From positions 1-30,788 of the IMG/VR virus record IMGVR_UViG_3300032245_001012: a stretch of 30,788 bases of DNA; one strand, given 5' to 3'. The stretch comes from a virus. Each line of letters opens with the position of its first letter. Position 1 is the stretch's first letter. Shown piece after piece: positions 2-29,989 of this stretch. The translations under genes and the position numbers were made by a program. Below the pieces are notes generated by a model. The model was not told the origin of the DNA and did no database searches. It worked only from the letters and a program-made list of their open reading frames with translations.

Positions 2-463
2 CCGCTGATTCCTTTGGCGATTAATGAAGGCATGAAGGCGACCACCGGCATGGATTTCATCACTGCCGCCAAGACGGTTTATAGCAGTAGCGCAGGCGAT
101 GATGTTCGGGCGCAAATTGCCGAGCAAAAGAAAAAGGCAATGGAAAGCGTAGCGGCTCCAACTGCCGACCAAGCACCAGCACCAGACTCACCAATCGCTC
201 AAACGGCAAACAACACCGCGAAGATGGTGGACATTGCTCAAAAGCAACTGGACATCAGTCGGCAAATTCTTGGCGGCGGGACGGTTGCCAGTGAAGCGGC
301 ATCACCAGTCCGAATCGGGCAGGCGTTGGGCCGTGGCGGTCAAGGCTCACGAGTTGAGCAGAAACTGCGCGAGTTCGTGCGGGAAGTCTACAACGAGACC
401 ATCGGCATCTCTATAGCATCTCAGCGCAACACGGGCCAGCCGAATCGGTTTGGGGTTCGATAA
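2..463 (+). CDS. C-terminal end of a probable tape-measure or tail protein (5' partial)
   Basis: The reading frame is open to the left edge of the window, so this is probably the tail end of a longer protein and not a complete gene. A TTG at 14 could serve as a start, but nothing marks it. The visible part is rich in Ala, Gln and Lys and helical in character. It has a proline/alanine linker around residues 50-65, a Gly-rich segment (GRGGQGS) near the end, and a basic C-terminus. Its stop overlaps the start of the next gene by one base (TAATG at 461-465), so the two are co-translated. A position directly before a hub-like tail protein is where long-tailed phages carry the tape-measure protein. 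The function is inferred from position, not from a domain. Confidence 0.5.
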   Translation, partial: PLIPLAINEGMKATTGMDFITAAKTVYSSSAGDDVRAQIAEQKKKAMESVAAPTADQAPAPDSPIAQTANNTAKMVDIAQKQLDISRQILGGGTVASEAASPVRIGQALGRGGQGSRVEQKLREFVREVYNETIGISIASQRNTGQPNRFGVR

Positions 464-2817
464 TGCCCGACGCTCTACAAGTCCTAGTCGATGTGGCTCA
501 GCGACGGCTATCCGCGCCGCGCATCTCAATGACGGCCGAAAAATTCGGGTTCAACGGGCTTCTCTACAGCAGCACATGGATTGAACCGGTCGGCGGGACG
601 ATCATGCTTGAGCCTCCTCCGCTCAATGCAAGCTGGCACACAAGCAATAGCGGCAATTACGCTCGGTTTACACTCTCGGATTTTGGACTGAGCGCGACTG
701 CCGCAGGATGGCAGGAAGCAGACAACCGAGGGGCAGGGCCAGTCAATCTCATCAACGGCACCGGGATGGGCACGACGACACAGAAAACGTCTTCGACCTA
801 CGGCAAGAATCGCGGCTACTTCATTTCGTTCTACGCCTACAACGTCGAAAATAAGGCATCTGCCCTGTATTTTGAAGGCGGGATCAGCAACGGCGGAACT
901 GGCGCGGCGGGCGTATCTTGGGCGTTCTGGTCAACCGGGGCCGTTGACATCTACAAGGATGGCGTACTGGTCGGCTCCTACAACATCGCGGGCGATTTCA
1001 GCAACAAATACGCCGATTACTTGATCATTCCGATGAGGCGGCGCGACTTGCTGGTCTACAGTATCAGCGCGGGCGAAGGGTTTATCCATACCTTTACCGA
1101 CATCGCAGAAGACGCCACTGATCCGGTCATTCTCGCCGATGAAAAGTTCTGGTTTTTGGTCCGCAACCACTCGGCGAACGTTGAACTTGCCGTCCTGAAA
1201 TATCCGACGTCGGGTTACGTCACCAGCCTGCCGATCAGTCTCAGCGTTCCACCGCCGATCGGGGCCACGCTTGAACCGCGAGTGAACGCGGAGCCGGGCG
1301 TTAGCGTGACCGACGCCTACATCTTCGGCGATCAACCGTACTACGGCACGGTCCCGGACACGACCAACAAAATCTCGGCGTTTGCTGTGGTCAAAACGGA
1401 CGGCTCGGCATACACGCCAGATGGCTCCATCCGCGATGTTCTGATGAAGGCCACGCTGGTTGGCAATGGCAGTTACACGCCGTTTCTCTACGGGGCCCAC
1501 GCCGCCTACGCCGCCATCTTTGAAGATACAGACTCATCCGAGCAGTTCGACATCACGCCGTACATCATGCGGAATCCGTCGCCGACATTGAGCGTCCCCG
1601 ATGATCCCGGTGGCGTTGAGTTTCGGTTCACGATCTGGAAACCAGAGACGCTAGAAGCTTCTGACGTCGCACTACTGACCACGCTCGGCAATCGGCCGGT
1701 AACGGTCAAGATTGGCAGCAACATCCTTATCAATGGCGTGATGATGGAGCCTGAGTTTGACGATTCGTTCTACGACGAAGGGGCCCGGCTGCACTGCACG
1801 GTCAAAGATCAGCTTCATTTAGCGTCGACGCTTCAATTCCGGGAGCGAATCCCGCTTGATGCTCTTAAACTGTCGGACGCGCAGGACGCAACAAACTACT
1901 GGAAATCGGTTGTCCAGTTCTTAGCCTACTCTGGCGGCATCCTGAACGCCAACATGGACCTTGACAACGTTGGGTTCACGTTGCCATCGGTGCCAAAGGA
2001 CGGGCAGCAGGAAGCGTTTTCATGCTTCATCGACATCGGATCCAATCCATACGATGAACTGGCGCGGCAAGTCGGCACTTACGCGGCTGGCTTTGTTTGG
2101 AGAATGAAGCCCCAAGGATCGGGCGCGGCTCCTCAGTTCATCTTCAAAGACCCGGACACGCTTTCGGCAACGCCTGATTACACCCTGTACCGAACGGGAG
2201 ACGACGCAGTGGCGGCATCTAAGCCAGCGACCGACGTTTACTGGACATATTCGGATCGTCCGCTACCGATTGAAGCTAACGAGGTTCGCGTGACGGGTTA
2301 CGATCCCCGCGCAAAGCAGGTCATCAGTGCCTATTCGATTGACGACGCAAGTCAGGATCCGACCACCGCGCCAAGTAGTAGGCCAACCAACTGGACCGGC
2401 ACCCCGCTGGTCTTTGGCGTGATTGATGGTCGTTTCACCTCGCAGGATGCATGCAACCGAGTTGTGGCGGCGATCTTCCCGCGAGTATCGGCTCGCTACT
2501 ACATCTCGCAGTTCACCAGCGAAATGCTTTTCAAAACGAGCGGCGCGCCCGTATGGCCATCGGATCTTGTCCGGTTGGTTGGTCGGCGCGATGTTCGCAT
2601 CTCGGCGATGACGGTTGAGTTCATCGTTGAGGATGGATCAACGTTCGTGGCGCGGAATGTCACCTATACGGGCGGCGCAATCATGAACCGGGGCGGCTAC
2701 GGTACCGAGTCCATCGTTGCCGCGCAGCTGCGGGCCGCGATCAGCAAAACCTTTGTCTACGGTGGCAGTGAGTTTATCGCCGCTCAGACGCCAGCAGTGA
2801 CGGTTCTGGTGCCCTAA
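463..2817 (+). CDS. Tail hub / tail-tip-like structural protein
   Basis: This 784-residue protein has no signal peptide or membrane segment. Residues about 80-210 are rich in aromatic and Gly residues and look like a beta-sandwich (concanavalin/LamG style). The C-terminal 350 residues resemble phage hub proteins of the gpD/gp27 type: a segment around NGVMMEPEFDD followed by DQLHLAS, later EVRVTGYDPRAKQ, then a run of beta strands ending near FVARNVTYTGG. Hub proteins sit at the tail tip below the tape measure and join tube to fibres. Both ends are coupled by one-base TAATG overlaps with neighbours, which supports an operon of tail-tip genes. Assignment as hub rests on order and fold impression; a fibre-like adhesin is the alternative. 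Confidence 0.5.
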   Translation: MPDALQVLVDVAQRRLSAPRISMTAEKFGFNGLLYSSTWIEPVGGTIMLEPPPLNASWHTSNSGNYARFTLSDFGLSATAAGWQEADNRGAGPVNLINGTGMGTTTQKTSSTYGKNRGYFISFYAYNVENKASALYFEGGISNGGTGAAGVSWAFWSTGAVDIYKDGVLVGSYNIAGDFSNKYADYLIIPMRRRDLLVYSISAGEGFIHTFTDIAEDATDPVILADEKFWFLVRNHSANVELAVLKYPTSGYVTSLPISLSVPPPIGATLEPRVNAEPGVSVTDAYIFGDQPYYGTVPDTTNKISAFAVVKTDGSAYTPDGSIRDVLMKATLVGNGSYTPFLYGAHAAYAAIFEDTDSSEQFDITPYIMRNPSPTLSVPDDPGGVEFRFTIWKPETLEASDVALLTTLGNRPVTVKIGSNILINGVMMEPEFDDSFYDEGARLHCTVKDQLHLASTLQFRERIPLDALKLSDAQDATNYWKSVVQFLAYSGGILNANMDLDNVGFTLPSVPKDGQQEAFSCFIDIGSNPYDELARQVGTYAAGFVWRMKPQGSGAAPQFIFKDPDTLSATPDYTLYRTGDDAVAASKPATDVYWTYSDRPLPIEANEVRVTGYDPRAKQVISAYSIDDASQDPTTAPSSRPTNWTGTPLVFGVIDGRFTSQDACNRVVAAIFPRVSARYYISQFTSEMLFKTSGAPVWPSDLVRLVGRRDVRISAMTVEFIVEDGSTFVARNVTYTGGAIMNRGGYGTESIVAAQLRAAISKTFVYGGSEFIAAQTPAVTVLVP

Positions 2818-5800
2818 TGTCCACGGTCTTTAGCACGGGTCGGTTTCGCACTCTGACATGGAGCGGCGACATCACCGATTCGTTTCACGGCAAGGTTGTG
2901 CCAGTCGCGCCACCGGCCGTCGGAACGTTTGTCCACAGCAGCGACATCGATTTCCGGGTCATCGCCTATTCAAAGCTCTTTGGTGGGATCTATCTCGTTC
3001 GCTTCACGACGTACCGGGATCCTAACAATCTGCTGGGATCGGGCATCACTCAGCACGTCACCGCGACGATTGACACGGGCGACGGTTCCCCGGTCTCGGA
3101 CGACCAGTACACGTCTCACGCTTTCACGCCGCTGTTTCCCGGCAAAGAAGTGAGCTGGGACATGAGCGGCGACTGGTCGGTCACTTGCGACGTCGTGGAA
3201 AAGTGCGAGGTTTACAGTCTCGGCGACTCCGATCCTGACCGCATTGATACCAACGAGTTTCCGACCGAACCGATCTGGGACACGGGCACCGGCACGATCA
3301 CGGCATACGGCGGGGCTTACTCAGACGGGCTTCGTGGCTACGGGGTTCGATTCTTCGAGGTCATCCAGTCTGGCACCGACATCGTGGCCACGATTACTTG
3401 CGCGGGAGCGGGCACGGCAACGGTTACCAAGACGCTCACCGCTGATGTCGTCTGCGGGTATGGATTCTGGAATAAGTCTCTGAACGCATGGCGCAACGAA
3501 GCCAGCGAGCTGATCATTGAACACGTGCTGAACGGTGACTCAATGGACACCGATCTTAGCGAGACGCTGACTGCATCGGGCGCGTGGGGAACCGGCACGA
3601 TCACGATTGAGGGCGACATGGACACCCAGAGCGGGTCCGGCGGCGGTGGCTACACCCTTGCCGACAGTCTGGTCGTCCCGCCGATCAGTTGGAAGGCCAA
3701 GACATCGGTCAGAACGTGGGATACCGCGTATCCTGCCGAACTGCAGCTGAACCTACTCAAGTACGCCGGGATCGTGACGCCGATCCTGTTCACCGGAACT
3801 AACACGCAAAGCCTCTGGAAGCAACGGTACGTCGAAATCTACAACGAGGTTCACGAAGCTAATACTAACCTCACCGGGTCTCGCACCCTTAATATTTTTG
3901 AGCAGTATCCAATTCGCGCGTGGCTTGACGTCGATTCACTGAGCAACGCGGGCGAAGACTCGGGAGATTGGCGACTTTGCTTTCTCGGTAAGCAGTGGGA
4001 CGCGGGCACGATCTCGCACGCCACGACCTACGTCGTAGACAACGGATCCAGCGCAACGAATTGGATCGCATCGGGTGGCACGGTTGCCAGCGATGGGACG
4101 CGGGTCAGGCTCACTCCAAGCGGTACGGCAAGCCTCACGCGGACTTTCACCGGTGACCTAATCGCTGAAGGGTACCGGTACCTCGACATCCGCTGGCGTT
4201 CCAACGGAATCGCGACGCAGACGGTCACGGTGACGATGGCGGGTAAGACGTGGACCGCGCAGACGGCCGCCGATGGCACGTATGTCACGGTTCGGCTTGA
4301 TCTTGCCTGCGCGGGCAACGAGACCGACGATGTGGAGCCGGTAGATTCCAGATTCCAGATTGAGGATCCGGGTGGCTACCCAACGGCTAAACGACCAAAG
4401 GAAAAGTACCTGCTTGGCTGGGGTGTCAATTACATTGAGTCAATTGCCTTCTCCGGGATTAACACTGGATGGACTAGCTTTGATATTGACTGGATCCAGT
4501 TCGCCCGTGACGAGACAAAGGCGTACCTTTCGTTTCTCGCGCCATTTGCCAAATACGGGCCGGGATGGACATCACCAAGCGACACGACGACGCTGCAGCC
4601 GTATGCCTTTCAATACTCAGACGGCAGACCGGCCGACTGGCCCGCGATGGCGTTCGTTGACGTAACGAGCGGGACCGATTATTACCGCTGGTTCACGATC
4701 ACCGACATGCTCGGGTTCTTAGAAAACTCGCCGGGCTGGTCAACGGTTCCAGCGGGTTCGTTCCCGTCTGACGGGTTCCACAATAACGGGCTTGAAGCCT
4801 ACTGCTTGTCGGCTGGCGGCGCGACCTTCAACTTCAACCCGTTTGTTTATGACTTCACGTACTGGACAAACACCGAGGCCGACGATGCGACAATCACGCT
4901 AAAAGCTCAGGCGATGTGGGATGAGGTCCACGCCTACCCCGGTGCCGGTCGCGGAGTCTGGGACGATTCGGGCTACGACGCCACCAAACCCGAAGTACCG
5001 CTGGCAATGGCGAAGCACTTCCGGGCAAGGACCGAGGGCATAGTGTTCCTCGACACCGACCTGCCGTTTTCATCGGCGACCATCGTAGCCTACGAAACGG
5101 CGACGCCTGCCAACGTGATCGGCAACGCAACCACGGATACCACGGGCAGGTTCACGACAAACACGCCATACGCTAAGACGCCGAAGACGATCACGACTGA
5201 ACTGCGGCAAGGGGCACCAACCTACCTTGAAGCGCACCGGAGCCTTAAGAACCGCGAGCGAGATCGAACATCGTTCAGGAAGGCCGCGACCACTGTTGAA
5301 CAACCTCTAGCCTACGCCGTATCACGCGATTCAAGACATGCCCGAGGCTACGTTCGGGCTGGAACTTTGCGGTTTGGCTTTTCTGCCAACGCATCTTTTG
5401 GCTGGTCGGAAGTGGACACGACCAAGACCGGCATCACATCGCTTTCGATGGATTACGTGCGGGCCAGCCAGTCCAACACGCTTCAGGTTTGCGTGGTCGA
5501 ATCGGGCACAGCAAAGGTTTACAGCACGGACAAAGAGGACGGGACACTTACCTTGGCAATTACTATCGGAACAGCAAGCCACGCGGCGGTTGTGGAGCGG
5601 CCTGACGGCCTGCTCATGACCTTTAGATTAAGCGGTGGCACGGTCTACATGCGGGCTTACGACGCTGACGGCAACGCGCTATATGCCGAGCAAACCACAA
5701 ACCTCACTGGCCTAGACAATGCCGAGATTGACGCCCGGTTCTCGGTGGGGCCGACTCAAAACGTGCGAATAGGGATTTTACACATCGTCGGGGGTTCCGC

Positions 5801-5840
5801 GATCTTCAAAACATCAGCGGACGGGATCACATTCAGCTAA
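2817..5840 (+). CDS. Large tail-associated protein, probably adhesin or baseplate component
   Basis: This is a 1007-residue protein translated from an ATG overlapping the previous stop (TAATG). It is rich in Thr, Gly, Asp, Tyr and Trp and appears to be almost entirely beta structure. Residues about 400-570 look like a jelly-roll carbohydrate-binding module, with alternating strands around YLDIRWRSN and FDIDWIQFARDE. Residues about 740-790 resemble a small Ig-like or carboxypeptidase-regulatory repeat (TATPANVIGNATTDTTGRF). The last 150 residues form another beta domain. No catalytic motif was recognised. Its position between the hub-like gene and the fibre gene suggests a part of the tail tip that contacts the cell surface. 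A polysaccharide depolymerase cannot be excluded. Confidence 0.5.
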   Translation: MSTVFSTGRFRTLTWSGDITDSFHGKVVPVAPPAVGTFVHSSDIDFRVIAYSKLFGGIYLVRFTTYRDPNNLLGSGITQHVTATIDTGDGSPVSDDQYTSHAFTPLFPGKEVSWDMSGDWSVTCDVVEKCEVYSLGDSDPDRIDTNEFPTEPIWDTGTGTITAYGGAYSDGLRGYGVRFFEVIQSGTDIVATITCAGAGTATVTKTLTADVVCGYGFWNKSLNAWRNEASELIIEHVLNGDSMDTDLSETLTASGAWGTGTITIEGDMDTQSGSGGGGYTLADSLVVPPISWKAKTSVRTWDTAYPAELQLNLLKYAGIVTPILFTGTNTQSLWKQRYVEIYNEVHEANTNLTGSRTLNIFEQYPIRAWLDVDSLSNAGEDSGDWRLCFLGKQWDAGTISHATTYVVDNGSSATNWIASGGTVASDGTRVRLTPSGTASLTRTFTGDLIAEGYRYLDIRWRSNGIATQTVTVTMAGKTWTAQTAADGTYVTVRLDLACAGNETDDVEPVDSRFQIEDPGGYPTAKRPKEKYLLGWGVNYIESIAFSGINTGWTSFDIDWIQFARDETKAYLSFLAPFAKYGPGWTSPSDTTTLQPYAFQYSDGRPADWPAMAFVDVTSGTDYYRWFTITDMLGFLENSPGWSTVPAGSFPSDGFHNNGLEAYCLSAGGATFNFNPFVYDFTYWTNTEADDATITLKAQAMWDEVHAYPGAGRGVWDDSGYDATKPEVPLAMAKHFRARTEGIVFLDTDLPFSSATIVAYETATPANVIGNATTDTTGRFTTNTPYAKTPKTITTELRQGAPTYLEAHRSLKNRERDRTSFRKAATTVEQPLAYAVSRDSRHARGYVRAGTLRFGFSANASFGWSEVDTTKTGITSLSMDYVRASQSNTLQVCVVESGTAKVYSTDKEDGTLTLAITIGTASHAAVVERPDGLLMTFRLSGGTVYMRAYDADGNALYAEQTTNLTGLDNAEIDARFSVGPTQNVRIGILHIVGGSAIFKTSADGITFS

Positions 5841-18420: not shown

Positions 18421-18593
18421 CCGTTTTTGTTGTGCGCCAAACCGCCACCGGATCGTTTGTAATTGGTTCGTTTGGTTATCAAGGACGACGAGCAATATTC
18501 GTTCCTCGGGACGGTATTCGATTTTCAAGTCGCGAAGCTGCGGAAGCTGAATTACAAGCCGAGCAGCTCAAGCAGAAGGATGGGGACGAGTGA
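18417..18593 (+). CDS. 58-residue unknown protein
   Basis: This ORF has ATGA at its start and GTGA at its end, both shared with neighbours, which supports translation. The N-terminal half is beta-like (TVFVVRQTATGSFVIGSFGY) and resembles a small barrel strand set. The C-terminal half is a charged helix (SREAAEAELQAEQLKQK). No family is recognised. Confidence 0.5.
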   Translation: MTVFVVRQTATGSFVIGSFGYQGRRAIFVPRDGIRFSSREAAEAELQAEQLKQKDGDE

Positions 18594-18883
18594 AGGAGCG
18601 AATCCTAGAGCTGCGGCAGCAGGGCCTTTCGGCGACCAAGATTGCCAACCAACTTAACGCGGAAGGGTCGCTAACTCCAAGCGGCTTAGAGTGGACAGCT
18701 AAGCACGTTTACAACCACGAAAACAGCGGCGAGAAGACGCCACGAACACCCCAAGAATTGTTGGCCCACGACCCAACGAACAAGTTGGCGTTAGCCGATC
18801 TTGACGACCGGGCGCGATATTTCGCCAGCGGCAATCTTGATATTTGGGCAATTCGGCATATCAACGAGGAGTACAGCAAGTGA
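18590..18883 (+). CDS. HTH protein resembling the recombinase-type helix region
   Basis: The GTG start overlaps the previous stop (GTGA); the product has 97 residues. The segment LRQQGLSATKIANQLNAEGS, then LTPSGLEWTAKHVYNHE, follows the pattern I remember from large serine recombinases and small phage HTH proteins that choose DNA sites. The rest, RTPQELLAHDPTN and on, is helical. No catalytic domain is present, so it is most likely a stand-alone DNA-binding protein directly upstream of the methyltransferase. A regulator of that gene is possible. Confidence 0.5.
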   Translation: MKERILELRQQGLSATKIANQLNAEGSLTPSGLEWTAKHVYNHENSGEKTPRTPQELLAHDPTNKLALADLDDRARYFASGNLDIWAIRHINEEYSK

Positions 18884-19974
18884 CCCATCTAGAACTATTT
18901 GCAGGAATAGGCGGGATCGCCATCGCCTCCGAATGGGCGGGATTTGAACACGTTGGGTTTGTTGAGCGTGATCCGTTCTGCCAGAAAGTCTTAGCCAAGC
19001 ACTGGCCCCATGTCCCAATTTACGACGATGTTAGAACATTTGACGGAACAGAATTCAGAGGCGTTGACCTCATCAGCGGTGGCTTTCCATGCCAGCCCCA
19101 CCCCCTTGCTGGAAGCCGTAAGGCGTCTGGCGACGAGCGTGATCTCTGGGGAGAATTCAGGCGTCTTGTGGGGGAAGCGAGACCGACATGGGTGTTGGCA
19201 GAAAACGTCCCAGGATTGTTTAGCTCTGAATCTGGAAGATTCTTCGGGCGAGTGGTCGATGACCTGGCCACGTTGGGGTACCGCGTGGGATGGGCTTGTT
19301 ATGGAGCATCCGACACCGGAGCGGTTCACCGTCGAAATCGGGTTTTCATCGTTGCCTACTCCGCGCTCGGAGAAGATGACTGGCGAGAACGCCGAGACAT
19401 GGAGCGCCCGAACGCAGGACGGGAAACACGCATCAAAACCGCTAGCTTTGGCAGTTCAGATGTTGCCTACTCCGACTTCCAGCGAACACAAGTACAGGTT
19501 GCAGGGGGACTCTCAGCAGAGCAACTGCTTAGAAGCGAGGGCGCGACGGGGGGAACTGCTACCCACTCCGCAAGCGTGGGATGCGAAAGATTATCATGCG
19601 GCGAAACCCGAGATAGTCAAGACGCGGGAACAGCAAAAGAAGCGGGGCGGCGGTTGTGCGAATCTGGCCGAGAGAATGGCGGCGCAAATGTTGCCTACGC
19701 CAGCCGCATCTCAAATGGGCAAGCCAGTACGACCGCTGATACCATCGGAAATAGACGGGACGCCCGGCACTATGTTGGTTGGAGCGATAGGTCAAGCGAT
19801 TGGCGAGAATGGGGAATCAGTCCAACGGTTAGGCTTGAACCCCGAGTTCGTCGAGGTGATGATGAACTTCCCCGTCGGATGGACCGAGTTAACCGACTGA
19901 AGGCACTAGGTAACGCCGTAGTCCCAGCTCAGATTTACCCAATCCTGAAAGCGATAGCGGAGGCAAGCAAGTGA
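18880..19974 (+). CDS. DNA (cytosine-5) methyltransferase
   Basis: From the GTG at 18880 (GTGA overlap) the enzyme has 364 residues. It methylates cytosine C5 in DNA using S-adenosylmethionine. Motif I is FAGIGG (7-12), motif IV GGFPCQP with catalytic Cys71, motif VI AENV (107-110), motif VIII HRRNRVF (about 150) and motif X ALGNAVVP near residue 343. The target-recognition stretch between VIII and X (about 160-320) is low in hydrophobic residues and contains repeated VAYS-type blocks. No restriction enzyme is seen beside it, so self-protection of phage DNA is a likely role. A second long frame runs through most of this gene. Confidence 0.9.
   Translation: MTHLELFAGIGGIAIASEWAGFEHVGFVERDPFCQKVLAKHWPHVPIYDDVRTFDGTEFRGVDLISGGFPCQPHPLAGSRKASGDERDLWGEFRRLVGEARPTWVLAENVPGLFSSESGRFFGRVVDDLATLGYRVGWACYGASDTGAVHRRNRVFIVAYSALGEDDWRERRDMERPNAGRETRIKTASFGSSDVAYSDFQRTQVQVAGGLSAEQLLRSEGATGGTATHSASVGCERLSCGETRDSQDAGTAKEAGRRLCESGRENGGANVAYASRISNGQASTTADTIGNRRDARHYVGWSDRSSDWREWGISPTVRLEPRVRRGDDELPRRMDRVNRLKALGNAVVPAQIYPILKAIAEASK
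19010..19900 (+). CDS. Overlapping frame: methyltransferase-associated LPTP-box protein
   Basis: This 296-residue frame lies wholly inside the methyltransferase gene, shifted by one base. It contains WPRWGTAWDGLVMEHPTPE, four LPTP boxes (SSLPTPRS, QMLPTPTS, ELLPTPQA, QMLPTPAA) and an ending GLNPEFVEVMMNFPVGWTE. I recognise this order from proteins that occur beside or within phage C5 methyltransferases. The boxes correspond to the VAYS-type blocks of the methyltransferase frame, because GTTGCCTACTCC reads V-A-Y-S in one frame and L-P-T-P in the next. No good ribosome site was found before the ATG at 19010. It is either a true overprinted gene or a reading that mirrors constraints on the methyltransferase. 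Confidence 0.45.
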   Translation: MSQFTTMLEHLTEQNSEALTSSAVAFHASPTPLLEAVRRLATSVISGENSGVLWGKRDRHGCWQKTSQDCLALNLEDSSGEWSMTWPRWGTAWDGLVMEHPTPERFTVEIGFSSLPTPRSEKMTGENAETWSARTQDGKHASKPLALAVQMLPTPTSSEHKYRLQGDSQQSNCLEARARRGELLPTPQAWDAKDYHAAKPEIVKTREQQKKRGGGCANLAERMAAQMLPTPAASQMGKPVRPLIPSEIDGTPGTMLVGAIGQAIGENGESVQRLGLNPEFVEVMMNFPVGWTELTD

Positions 19975-28263: not shown

Positions 28264-29517
28264 ATGCTAAAACAGCTACAGGAAGACTACAAGAGCCTTT
28301 CCGCTAAGGTTCAGGGCGTTATGGCCCTGTCTGACGGAAAGCCGGGCGCAATGCCCGCCGACGATCAGGTCAAGTTTGAGCAAATGCTCGCTGACCTTGA
28401 CGCACTCAAGCACAGTATTGAATTGGCTGAAAAGGCCGAGGCGCACGCCGTCTGGGCGTCTACTCCCAACGACAAGCTCCGCGTTGCTCCCGAGCAACTG
28501 CACGACATCAAGCTGCACACCCCGGAAGAGAAGCACGCTTTCGCTAAGTTCATCACCGGCCACAAGCTGACCGATGGCGAGCAGAAGGCAATCACTCACA
28601 CCCTGACGGTCGGCAGCGACGTTCGTGGCGGTTACCTCGCTCCGGTCACGATGGCAAACGATCTGATCATCTTGCTTCGCAATATGGTCTACATTCGGTC
28701 GTGGGCACGGAACTACCAAATCACGCAGGGCGCATCCATTGAAGTTCCAGTACTGACGGCTGACGTTTCGGATCTCGTTGAGACTTCGGAAGCGGCGGCA
28801 TCTGGCACCGACGACACCCAGCTCAACTTCGGTATGCGCGTGTTGACTCCGCGACTTCGTGAAATCACCGTTCCGATTGGTCGGTTGATGGAGAAGTCTT
28901 CGGCGTTCGACATCTACAACATCGTCATGGAATCGGCGGCGTACTCCAAGGCCACCAAGGAAGAGAAGGAATTCTTGACCGGCAACGGCGCAAACCAAGC
29001 GATGGGCGTCTTCACCGAGTCCGTGAACGGTTTCAGCACCAGCCGAACCGTCAGCACCGGCACCGCGAACGTCATCGGATTTGATGACTTTGTGAACTGC
29101 CTTGCTGGTCTTCGGTCGCAGTTCCGAAACGGCGCAAACTGGCTGATTCACCGCAACCTTGAGGGTCGCGTGCGAAAGCTGAAGGACTCCGCCAACAACT
29201 ACCTCTGGTCCCCGGTTGGGCAGGGCGTCTACAACTCGCAGAACCTGACGGTTGGCCTGCCGGGAACCATTCTCGGATTTCCGTACTACACCTCGGAAAA
29301 CATGACCGATCCCGGTATCACCGGCAACATCACTACCGGCACGATGGTAGCAATCCTGTCGAACTTCCAGCAGTCCTACGCGATTGCGGACGCCATCGAC
29401 ATGGAGGTCGTGAACCTTGACCAAAAGTATTACCCCCGAAAAGCCCTTGGCTTCCTCGCGGCATACGATGCTCAGGTCGTCAACGAAAACGCAGGAATGC
29501 GAATCAAGGTGAGCTAA
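28264..29517 (+). CDS. Major capsid protein, HK97 fold
   Basis: This protein has 417 residues. The first 100 or so form a helical delta domain (SLSAKVQGVMALSDG, ALKHSIELAEKAEAHAVWA) that the protease should remove. The mature part starts before about GGYLAPVTMANDLI and contains RSWARNYQITQG, EVPVLTADVSD, REITVPIGRLMEKSS, KEEKEFLTGNGAN and QKYYPRKALGFLAAYDA, the usual HK97-fold order of E-loop, spine helix and A domain. A lysine and acidic residues near the E-loop could support crosslinks, but this cannot be judged by eye. Codon bias creates a long antisense frame across it. Confidence 0.93.
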   Translation: MLKQLQEDYKSLSAKVQGVMALSDGKPGAMPADDQVKFEQMLADLDALKHSIELAEKAEAHAVWASTPNDKLRVAPEQLHDIKLHTPEEKHAFAKFITGHKLTDGEQKAITHTLTVGSDVRGGYLAPVTMANDLIILLRNMVYIRSWARNYQITQGASIEVPVLTADVSDLVETSEAAASGTDDTQLNFGMRVLTPRLREITVPIGRLMEKSSAFDIYNIVMESAAYSKATKEEKEFLTGNGANQAMGVFTESVNGFSTSRTVSTGTANVIGFDDFVNCLAGLRSQFRNGANWLIHRNLEGRVRKLKDSANNYLWSPVGQGVYNSQNLTVGLPGTILGFPYYTSENMTDPGITGNITTGTMVAILSNFQQSYAIADAIDMEVVNLDQKYYPRKALGFLAAYDAQVVNENAGMRIKVS

Positions 29518-29521
29518 GACC

Positions 29522-29989
29522 ATGCAGAACCTACTCCGCAACACACTCGCCGTTCACGTCGCGCCTAACGACGCCGCGACCACGACCTACACTCTCGCCG
29601 CTGGCACGACTACCGTCAACTCGGTTGCCGTGGACACTCAAGGCTACAAAGGCGCAACGTGGCTTGTGACCTTTGGAACCAACATCGCCACTGCGGTCTT
29701 CGCTGGCAAGATTCAAGGCTCTGCCGATGGATCAACCGGATGGACTGACATCACGGGTGCAGCTCAAACCGTTACCGACGTCGCCGCCGCCACGGTGGAC
29801 AAGGTTCTTTCCATTCAAGTGGAAAGCCCACTGTTCCGCTACTTGCGGTTTGTCTCGGCTCGATCGGTGGCAAACTCGGTTATCAACAGCATGTTCTGCC
29901 TGCTTGATGATAACGTGAAGGGTCCTGTCACTCAGCTCGCAACGGCTGGTCAATTCGTTGCTGAACCGACCTACGTTTCGACGTTCTAA
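29522..29989 (+). CDS. Capsid-associated beta protein, decoration candidate
   Basis: The 155-residue protein follows the capsid gene by 4 bases. It is beta-rich with Thr and Val (TTTYTLAAGTTTVNSVAVD, GKIQGSADGSTGWTDITG) and includes an SPLFRYLRFVSAR segment common in phage structural proteins with a jelly-roll or Ig-like look. A gene at this place often encodes a head decoration or stabilising protein. It is followed by a hairpin that would limit downstream transcription. The family is not named with certainty. Confidence 0.6.
   Translation: MQNLLRNTLAVHVAPNDAATTTYTLAAGTTTVNSVAVDTQGYKGATWLVTFGTNIATAVFAGKIQGSADGSTGWTDITGAAQTVTDVAAATVDKVLSIQVESPLFRYLRFVSARSVANSVINSMFCLLDDNVKGPVTQLATAGQFVAEPTYVSTF

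Follow-up and report, generated by a model that had tools for sequence, protein, structure and literature searches.

Long same-strand overlaps in which both reading frames are under selection have rarely been established in bacteria and their phages. The viral DNA analysed here (the window, 30,788 nucleotides) belongs to a temperate phage, with integrase, repressor, terminase, portal and capsid genes, and raises the question of whether its C5-cytosine methyltransferase gene contains such an overlap and what the second frame would contribute to the enzyme. The initial annotation had reported a long frame nested in this gene and had suggested the overprinting of two genes. We conclude that the two frames, alpha and beta, are a real and old overlapping gene pair, and that beta most likely codes for the component with which the enzyme recognises its DNA target. 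The reading preferred here, held at a probability of about 0.83, is that of a two-subunit C5 methyltransferase with alpha as catalytic large domain and beta as target-recognition small domain, expression and activity being inferred. The overlap occurs in phages and in genomes of many phyla, has natural relatives that are free of it and offers a testable division of labour. If the reading is true, it would explain the apparent absence of a target-recognition domain from many phage methyltransferases, correct the label 'DNA methyltransferase' that two different subunits share, and direct the search for phage methyltransferase specificity to the right frame.

Two reading frames at one methyltransferase locus

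The features of the locus are listed below in window coordinates.

18866–18871 (+): Shine-Dalgarno-like GAGGAG upstream of the alpha GTG, from the sequence
18880–19974 (+): alpha, C5-cytosine methyltransferase, 364 aa, motifs I–VIII and X, without motif IX (PF00145, phrog_363)
19010–19900 (+): beta, LPTP protein, 296 aa, nested ORF in the +1 frame (phrog_1008, beta profile)
19028 (+): alternative ATG start of beta
19081–19095 (+): alpha motif IV, GFPCQ (PCQ invariant in alignments A2 and A4)
19201–19209 (+): alpha motif VI, ENV (invariant in alignment A4)
19265–19294 (+): beta segment WPRWGTAWDG (W86 nearly invariant)
19327–19356 (+): alpha motif VIII region, HRRNRVFIVA
19352–19363 (+): beta LPTP box 1, read as VAYS in alpha
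19426–19881 (+): alpha VIII–X interval, residues 183–334, predicted unfolded and weakly constrained
19463–19474 (+): beta LPTP box 2, read as VAYS in alpha
19559–19570 (+): beta LPTP box 3, read in alpha as ATHS, not VAYS
19691–19702 (+): beta LPTP box 4, read as VAYA in alpha
19835–19882 (+): beta motif IX-like segment LNPEFVEVMMNFPVGW (consensus LNPxWVEWLMGFPxGW in alignment A3)
19909–19926 (+): alpha motif X, GNAVVP

The alpha frame is open from 18844, most likely starts at the GTG at 18880 and ends at 19974. It carries the hallmarks of C5 methyltransferases (PF00145), namely the invariant PCQ, ENV, HxRxR and GN, and is matched along its length by phrog_363 (PHROGs, E 3e-72). The Pfam match to PF00145 (E 4e-43) covers residues 1–161 only, and neither motif IX nor a folded recognition domain was found in the chain between motifs VIII and X. 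In the AF2 model residues 1–170 mostly have pLDDT values above 90 and the motif X helix is confident, and Foldseek aligned the model with M.HhaI over about 160 columns. Nearly all of residues 183–334 fall below pLDDT 50, which could come partly from the shallow alignment of a variable region. Motif X starts 35 nt past the proline codon of the beta triplet NFP (usually GFP). Upstream, a small ORF at 18590–18883 (+) with a weak recombinase HTH-like match ends in a GTGA that overlaps the alpha start, an arrangement suggestive of translational coupling.

Beta is the +1 frame of alpha and is open throughout 19010–19900 (+), with 296 codons and a stop, which confirms the nested frame first reported. 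The elements that had been picked out in its product, namely WPRWGTAWDG, four LPTP boxes and the ending LNPEFVEVMMNFPVGW, were all located, as were the DNA repeats noted with them, GTTGCCTACTCC at 19351 and 19462 and GTTGCCTACGCC at 19690. The layout had also been linked to proteins that occur with phage methyltransferases, and this family exists: phrog_1008 matches residues 139–294 of beta (PHROGs, E 1.7e-20). A Pfam search with the nested product matched no family, and a PDB sequence search returned no match.

Conservation and selection in the nested frame

The overlap is conserved far beyond the window. In IMG/VR, 80 loci were collected through the beta profile and 80 through the alpha profile alone, and in 160/160 a +1 beta was matched by the beta profile, as the +1 frame of alpha or as its split remainder. 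Scanning the genomes of bacteria and archaea yielded 80 loci, of which nearly all are nested like the window, and the same +1 ORF is present in INPHARED phages of Paenibacillus, Synechococcus and Microcystis and in those from environmental samples. Assigned by rule and by eye, 272 loci comprise 254 nested, 10 split, 4 single-chain (the mosaic MidnightRain included), 1 tandem, 1 frameshifted and 2 without beta; 118/133 are nested once near copies are removed. The searches were seeded with nested members, so these counts hold for this clade and cannot be extended to C5 methyltransferases at large. In two canonical enzymes of that kind, L283 and L286, the +1 frame contains 15 and 27 stops, respectively, and does not match beta.

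The expectation for a frame without function was obtained by permuting alpha codons among synonymous positions. In the window this produced a mean of 5.2–5.3 stops in the stretch, which remained open in 0/300 trials, and the real +1 product scored 290 bits against the beta profile vs 59 ± 15 (maximum 105) for the shuffles; the window sequence is one of the 7 sequences on which the profile was trained. Over the ORF in the sampled loci a mean of 6.2–6.4 stops is expected in +1 and the real sequences have none. The real beta-profile score exceeded the best of 40 shuffles in 158/158 independent loci, with a real median of 116–123 bits vs a mean of 27–40 bits for shuffled alpha.

Selection was estimated from counts of substitutions, classed by what they change in each of the two frames, in 37 independent pairs, using a simple OLGenie-like method without correction for multiple hits. 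In the VIII–X interval, dNN/dNS of beta is 0.35 (0.26–0.52) in the 11 independent pairs with at least 70% identity there, vs a near-neutral alpha dNN/dSN of 0.85 (0.64–1.04) in the same 11 alignable pairs. An overlap-aware check thus bears out purifying selection in the second frame, one of the points on which the overprinting claim had been made to depend. The I–VIII part is held mainly by alpha (0.21, with beta at 0.54), and in pairs with diverged VIII–X intervals the contrast is nearly gone (alpha 0.78 vs beta 0.69). A scan for close relatives with the window beta alone found none, and selection was therefore measured in other family members and not in the lineage of the window itself.

The LPTP boxes show which frame dictates the sequence of this interval. 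Family members keep [LW]PTP in beta while its codons vary, and under the boxes alpha reads V/L/M-A-D/Y/N/H-S/T/A/P, the full set of residues that synonymous beta codons permit. Conversely, where alpha words in the interval have the form [VLMI]A[DYNH][STAP], beta reads [LWY]PT in 89% of 193 cases, vs 15% after shuffling. Because of this proportion and the codon variation under [LW]PTP, the VAYS repeats are regarded as a product of the LPTP boxes. The initial annotation had placed the boxes over VAYS-type repeats of the methyltransferase target region; the overlay holds, with ATHS at the third box, and the attribution has to be reversed, as the repeats are an out-of-frame shadow of the boxes and were rejected as a methyltransferase feature.

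Rearranged relatives and the role of beta

Some relatives carry the same parts without the nested overlap. The Mycobacterium phages prophiFVLQ01-1, Hamulus and Seagreen have motifs I–VIII, several LPTP boxes, a WMMGWP motif IX and GNGVxPQQ in one chain, and in Hamulus phrog_1008 matches in frame (E 4e-80). In the split form (L078, L018, L054, L180, L207, Severus and Vagabond) alpha ends past motif VIII and beta continues via motif IX to motif X, and in Porphyromonas somerae (L239) the alpha interval is short and a gene of its own, immediately downstream, encodes beta. A tree of the catalytic part intersperses these rearranged forms with nested ones and implies several changes of state; as it is unrooted and has weak resolution, the direction of those changes is an inference. 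On present evidence we favour, with some reservation, an old clade with its target-recognition domain in +1 over the catalytic gene, in which nesting is by far the commonest state and the split, tandem and single-chain forms arose from it repeatedly; if so, the pair would be one of the most widely distributed long gene overlaps in prokaryotes. Three lines of evidence support overprinting of two genes: the conservation, the selection acting on the beta frame and the natural rearrangements in which beta lies outside the overlap. Overprinting was to be given up if homologues were known only as translations of methyltransferase genes, with frequent stops in related phages and no purifying selection; beta also occurs outside the overlap, lacks the stops that would be expected and evolves under purifying selection.

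The end of beta, LNPxWVEWLMGFPxGW, corresponds to C5 motif IX in pattern and in position (L283 has RRLSPRECFRLQGFPDSF). When the Hamulus single chain was searched against PDB, the matches were confined to the catalytic part of M.HhaI and M.HaeIII, and homology to motif IX therefore has position and pattern as its basis. AF2 gave a poor model for beta by itself (mean pLDDT 56, with blocks 281–290 and 291–296 at 93 and 84), which leaves its fold and its likeness to a known target-recognition domain unproven. Identification with a solved fold was abandoned, given the lack of a PDB sequence match and a model too poor for searching. A poor model of beta by itself would be expected if the protein folds only with alpha, and it proves nothing. 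The initial suggestion that the second protein helps to choose the DNA target remains the best-supported function, inferred because of the motif IX-like segment and because the LPTP module of single-chain relatives lies at the target-recognition position.

Alternatively, beta might be a genuine overlapping protein under selection that serves a separate purpose, as a regulator, a DNA-binding or an anti-restriction protein, and is not the target-recognition part. Such a role could account for the extra N-terminal stretch upstream of the LPTP module, which is absent from the in-frame part of the single chains, and it cannot be dismissed by fold or family, since the lone AF2 model is too poor for identification and no Pfam model exists. 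It is nevertheless unlikely: in the single chains the LPTP module and motif IX fill precisely the gap from motif VIII to motif X, alpha has neither motif IX nor a folded recognition domain, and the split forms carry motif X on beta.

According to the preferred two-subunit reading, one stretch of DNA would encode both subunits of a heterodimeric C5-cytosine methyltransferase. The computed support consists of conservation of both frames, selection in beta, rearranged relatives and an alpha VIII–X stretch without motif IX or predicted fold; formation of the heterodimer is inferred. Alpha, in frame 0, would fold as the catalytic SAM-binding large domain with motifs I–VIII and X, and its VIII–X stretch would be mainly a linker that holds motif X on alpha, with a sequence dictated by beta. 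Beta, in frame +1, would be initiated separately at an internal ATG and would bring the small domain, an LPTP-box target-recognition module plus motif IX, which may pack on alpha and, by inference, read the target. If such an enzyme is divided after motif VIII, ahead of the recognition domain, and motif X is attached to the large domain, the resulting chains approximate the two natural domains (PMC5944983). The enzyme would probably methylate the phage's own DNA against host restriction; protection from restriction is inferred as a likely use because the phage is temperate.

Translation of beta is itself inferred. Neither of the window starts, 19010 and 19028, is preceded by a clear Shine-Dalgarno sequence. 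Across the loci SD-like motifs stand ahead of internal beta ATGs in 35%, vs 13% in shuffles, an enrichment that, as far as sequence can tell, supports separate initiation even though the window lacks such a motif. Programmed ribosomal frameshifting near motif VIII, giving a chain of I–VIII, LPTP and IX, is a distinctly improbable alternative. That a chain of this kind is viable is clear from the single-chain relatives, and split loci with motif X on beta would yield a canonical enzyme after a +1 shift, but the shifted chain of the nested form would lack motif X, as beta ends before it, and both the SD-like enrichment and the separate downstream beta gene of Porphyromonas speak against a shift. 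The notion that the nested frame is a passive by-product of alpha conservation and codon bias, its family consisting only of mis-called ORFs, draws on the weak beta score that survives shuffling, by which the similarity is partly passive, but it is ruled out by the shuffles (real scores 9–11 standard deviations higher, and an open frame despite about 6 expected stops), by selection in VIII–X that is stronger on beta than on alpha, by the LPTP word test, by beta outside the overlap and by the stops and missing beta match of the canonical enzymes, and thus stands refuted unless these results are sampling artefacts.

Known systems and further observations

M.EcoHK31I (YGGCCR), part of a restriction-modification system, is a naturally two-polypeptide C5 methyltransferase. 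Its small ORF is said to lie inside the large one in another frame, much as 19010–19900 lies in +1 within 18880–19974. Motifs I–VIII and X are on one of its polypeptides and motif IX on the other (PMC3404938), the same distribution as over the large and small chains of the window. By analogy from this shared layout, the phage pairs would work like M.EcoHK31I. The temperate phage has no recognised restriction gene alongside, whereas M.EcoHK31I belongs to a restriction-modification system. The large subunit of M.EcoHK31I contains the predicted target-recognition domain (PMC3404938), whereas the phage pairs seem to have it in the small one, which counts against the preferred reading. M.AquI (CYCGRG) has motifs I–VIII on one polypeptide and IX–X on the other (PMC3404938); the split loci named above share this division, with motif X on the second polypeptide, and the window differs from it, as alpha retains motif X and the whole of beta is nested. 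The kind of arrangement is therefore already known from the motif split of M.EcoHK31I, and what seems new is its breadth in phages, the recognition module in beta and the rearranged relatives. A literature search, which did not reach most subscription journals, found no description of this overlap in phages.

Existing annotations contain both halves of the pair. PHROGs labels phrog_1008, the beta or LPTP family, and phrog_363, the alpha family, as 'DNA methyltransferase', and gives neither their origin in two frames nor the enzyme part that each represents. In Paenibacillus larvae phages, such as Bloom with gp56/gp57, GenBank has overlapping genes that are both called 'DNA cytosine methyltransferase', without functional division. 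Hamulus gp68 and prophiFVLQ01-1 gp6 have the same kind of catalytic part and the same LPTP module with motif IX, and differ in being one continuous chain in the canonical order I–VIII, LPTP module, IX, X. The ShiLan element is an HNH endonuclease out of frame in phage methylases (PMC11855218). It resembles the present case as an out-of-frame protein in a phage methylase gene whose in-frame translation is poorly predicted, and differs in being a homing insertion of another protein that is no part of the enzyme. A ShiLan-like case is the methyltransferase of Mycobacterium phage Constella (L281, 1501–2928), whose gene contains an HNH endonuclease annotated in a different frame; only upstream beta-frame matches remain there.

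Other unusual arrangements were seen. A Vibrio IncC plasmid enzyme (L287, 2483–3727) has motifs I–VIII and X followed, without a change of frame, by a beta-like motif IX end, apparently an alpha–beta fusion in permuted order. In Arthrobacter phage MidnightRain (L278, 1501–2955) the LPTP boxes are in +1 but frame 0 encodes motifs IX and X; this mosaic either needs a frame change or marks decay. Porphyromonas somerae has a second, truncated LPTP fragment with a terminal motif IX (372–707 of L239); a GNAIVPE motif X comes after it in a different frame, and the intact tandem pair lies about 2.3 kb downstream. Elsewhere in the window, two large ORFs of 784 and 1007 aa at 463–5840 (+) are without a PHROG match. 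A 422-codon antisense ORF at 28276–29544 (−), likewise without a PHROG match, runs over nearly all of the major head gene (28264–29517) and is probably a composition effect.
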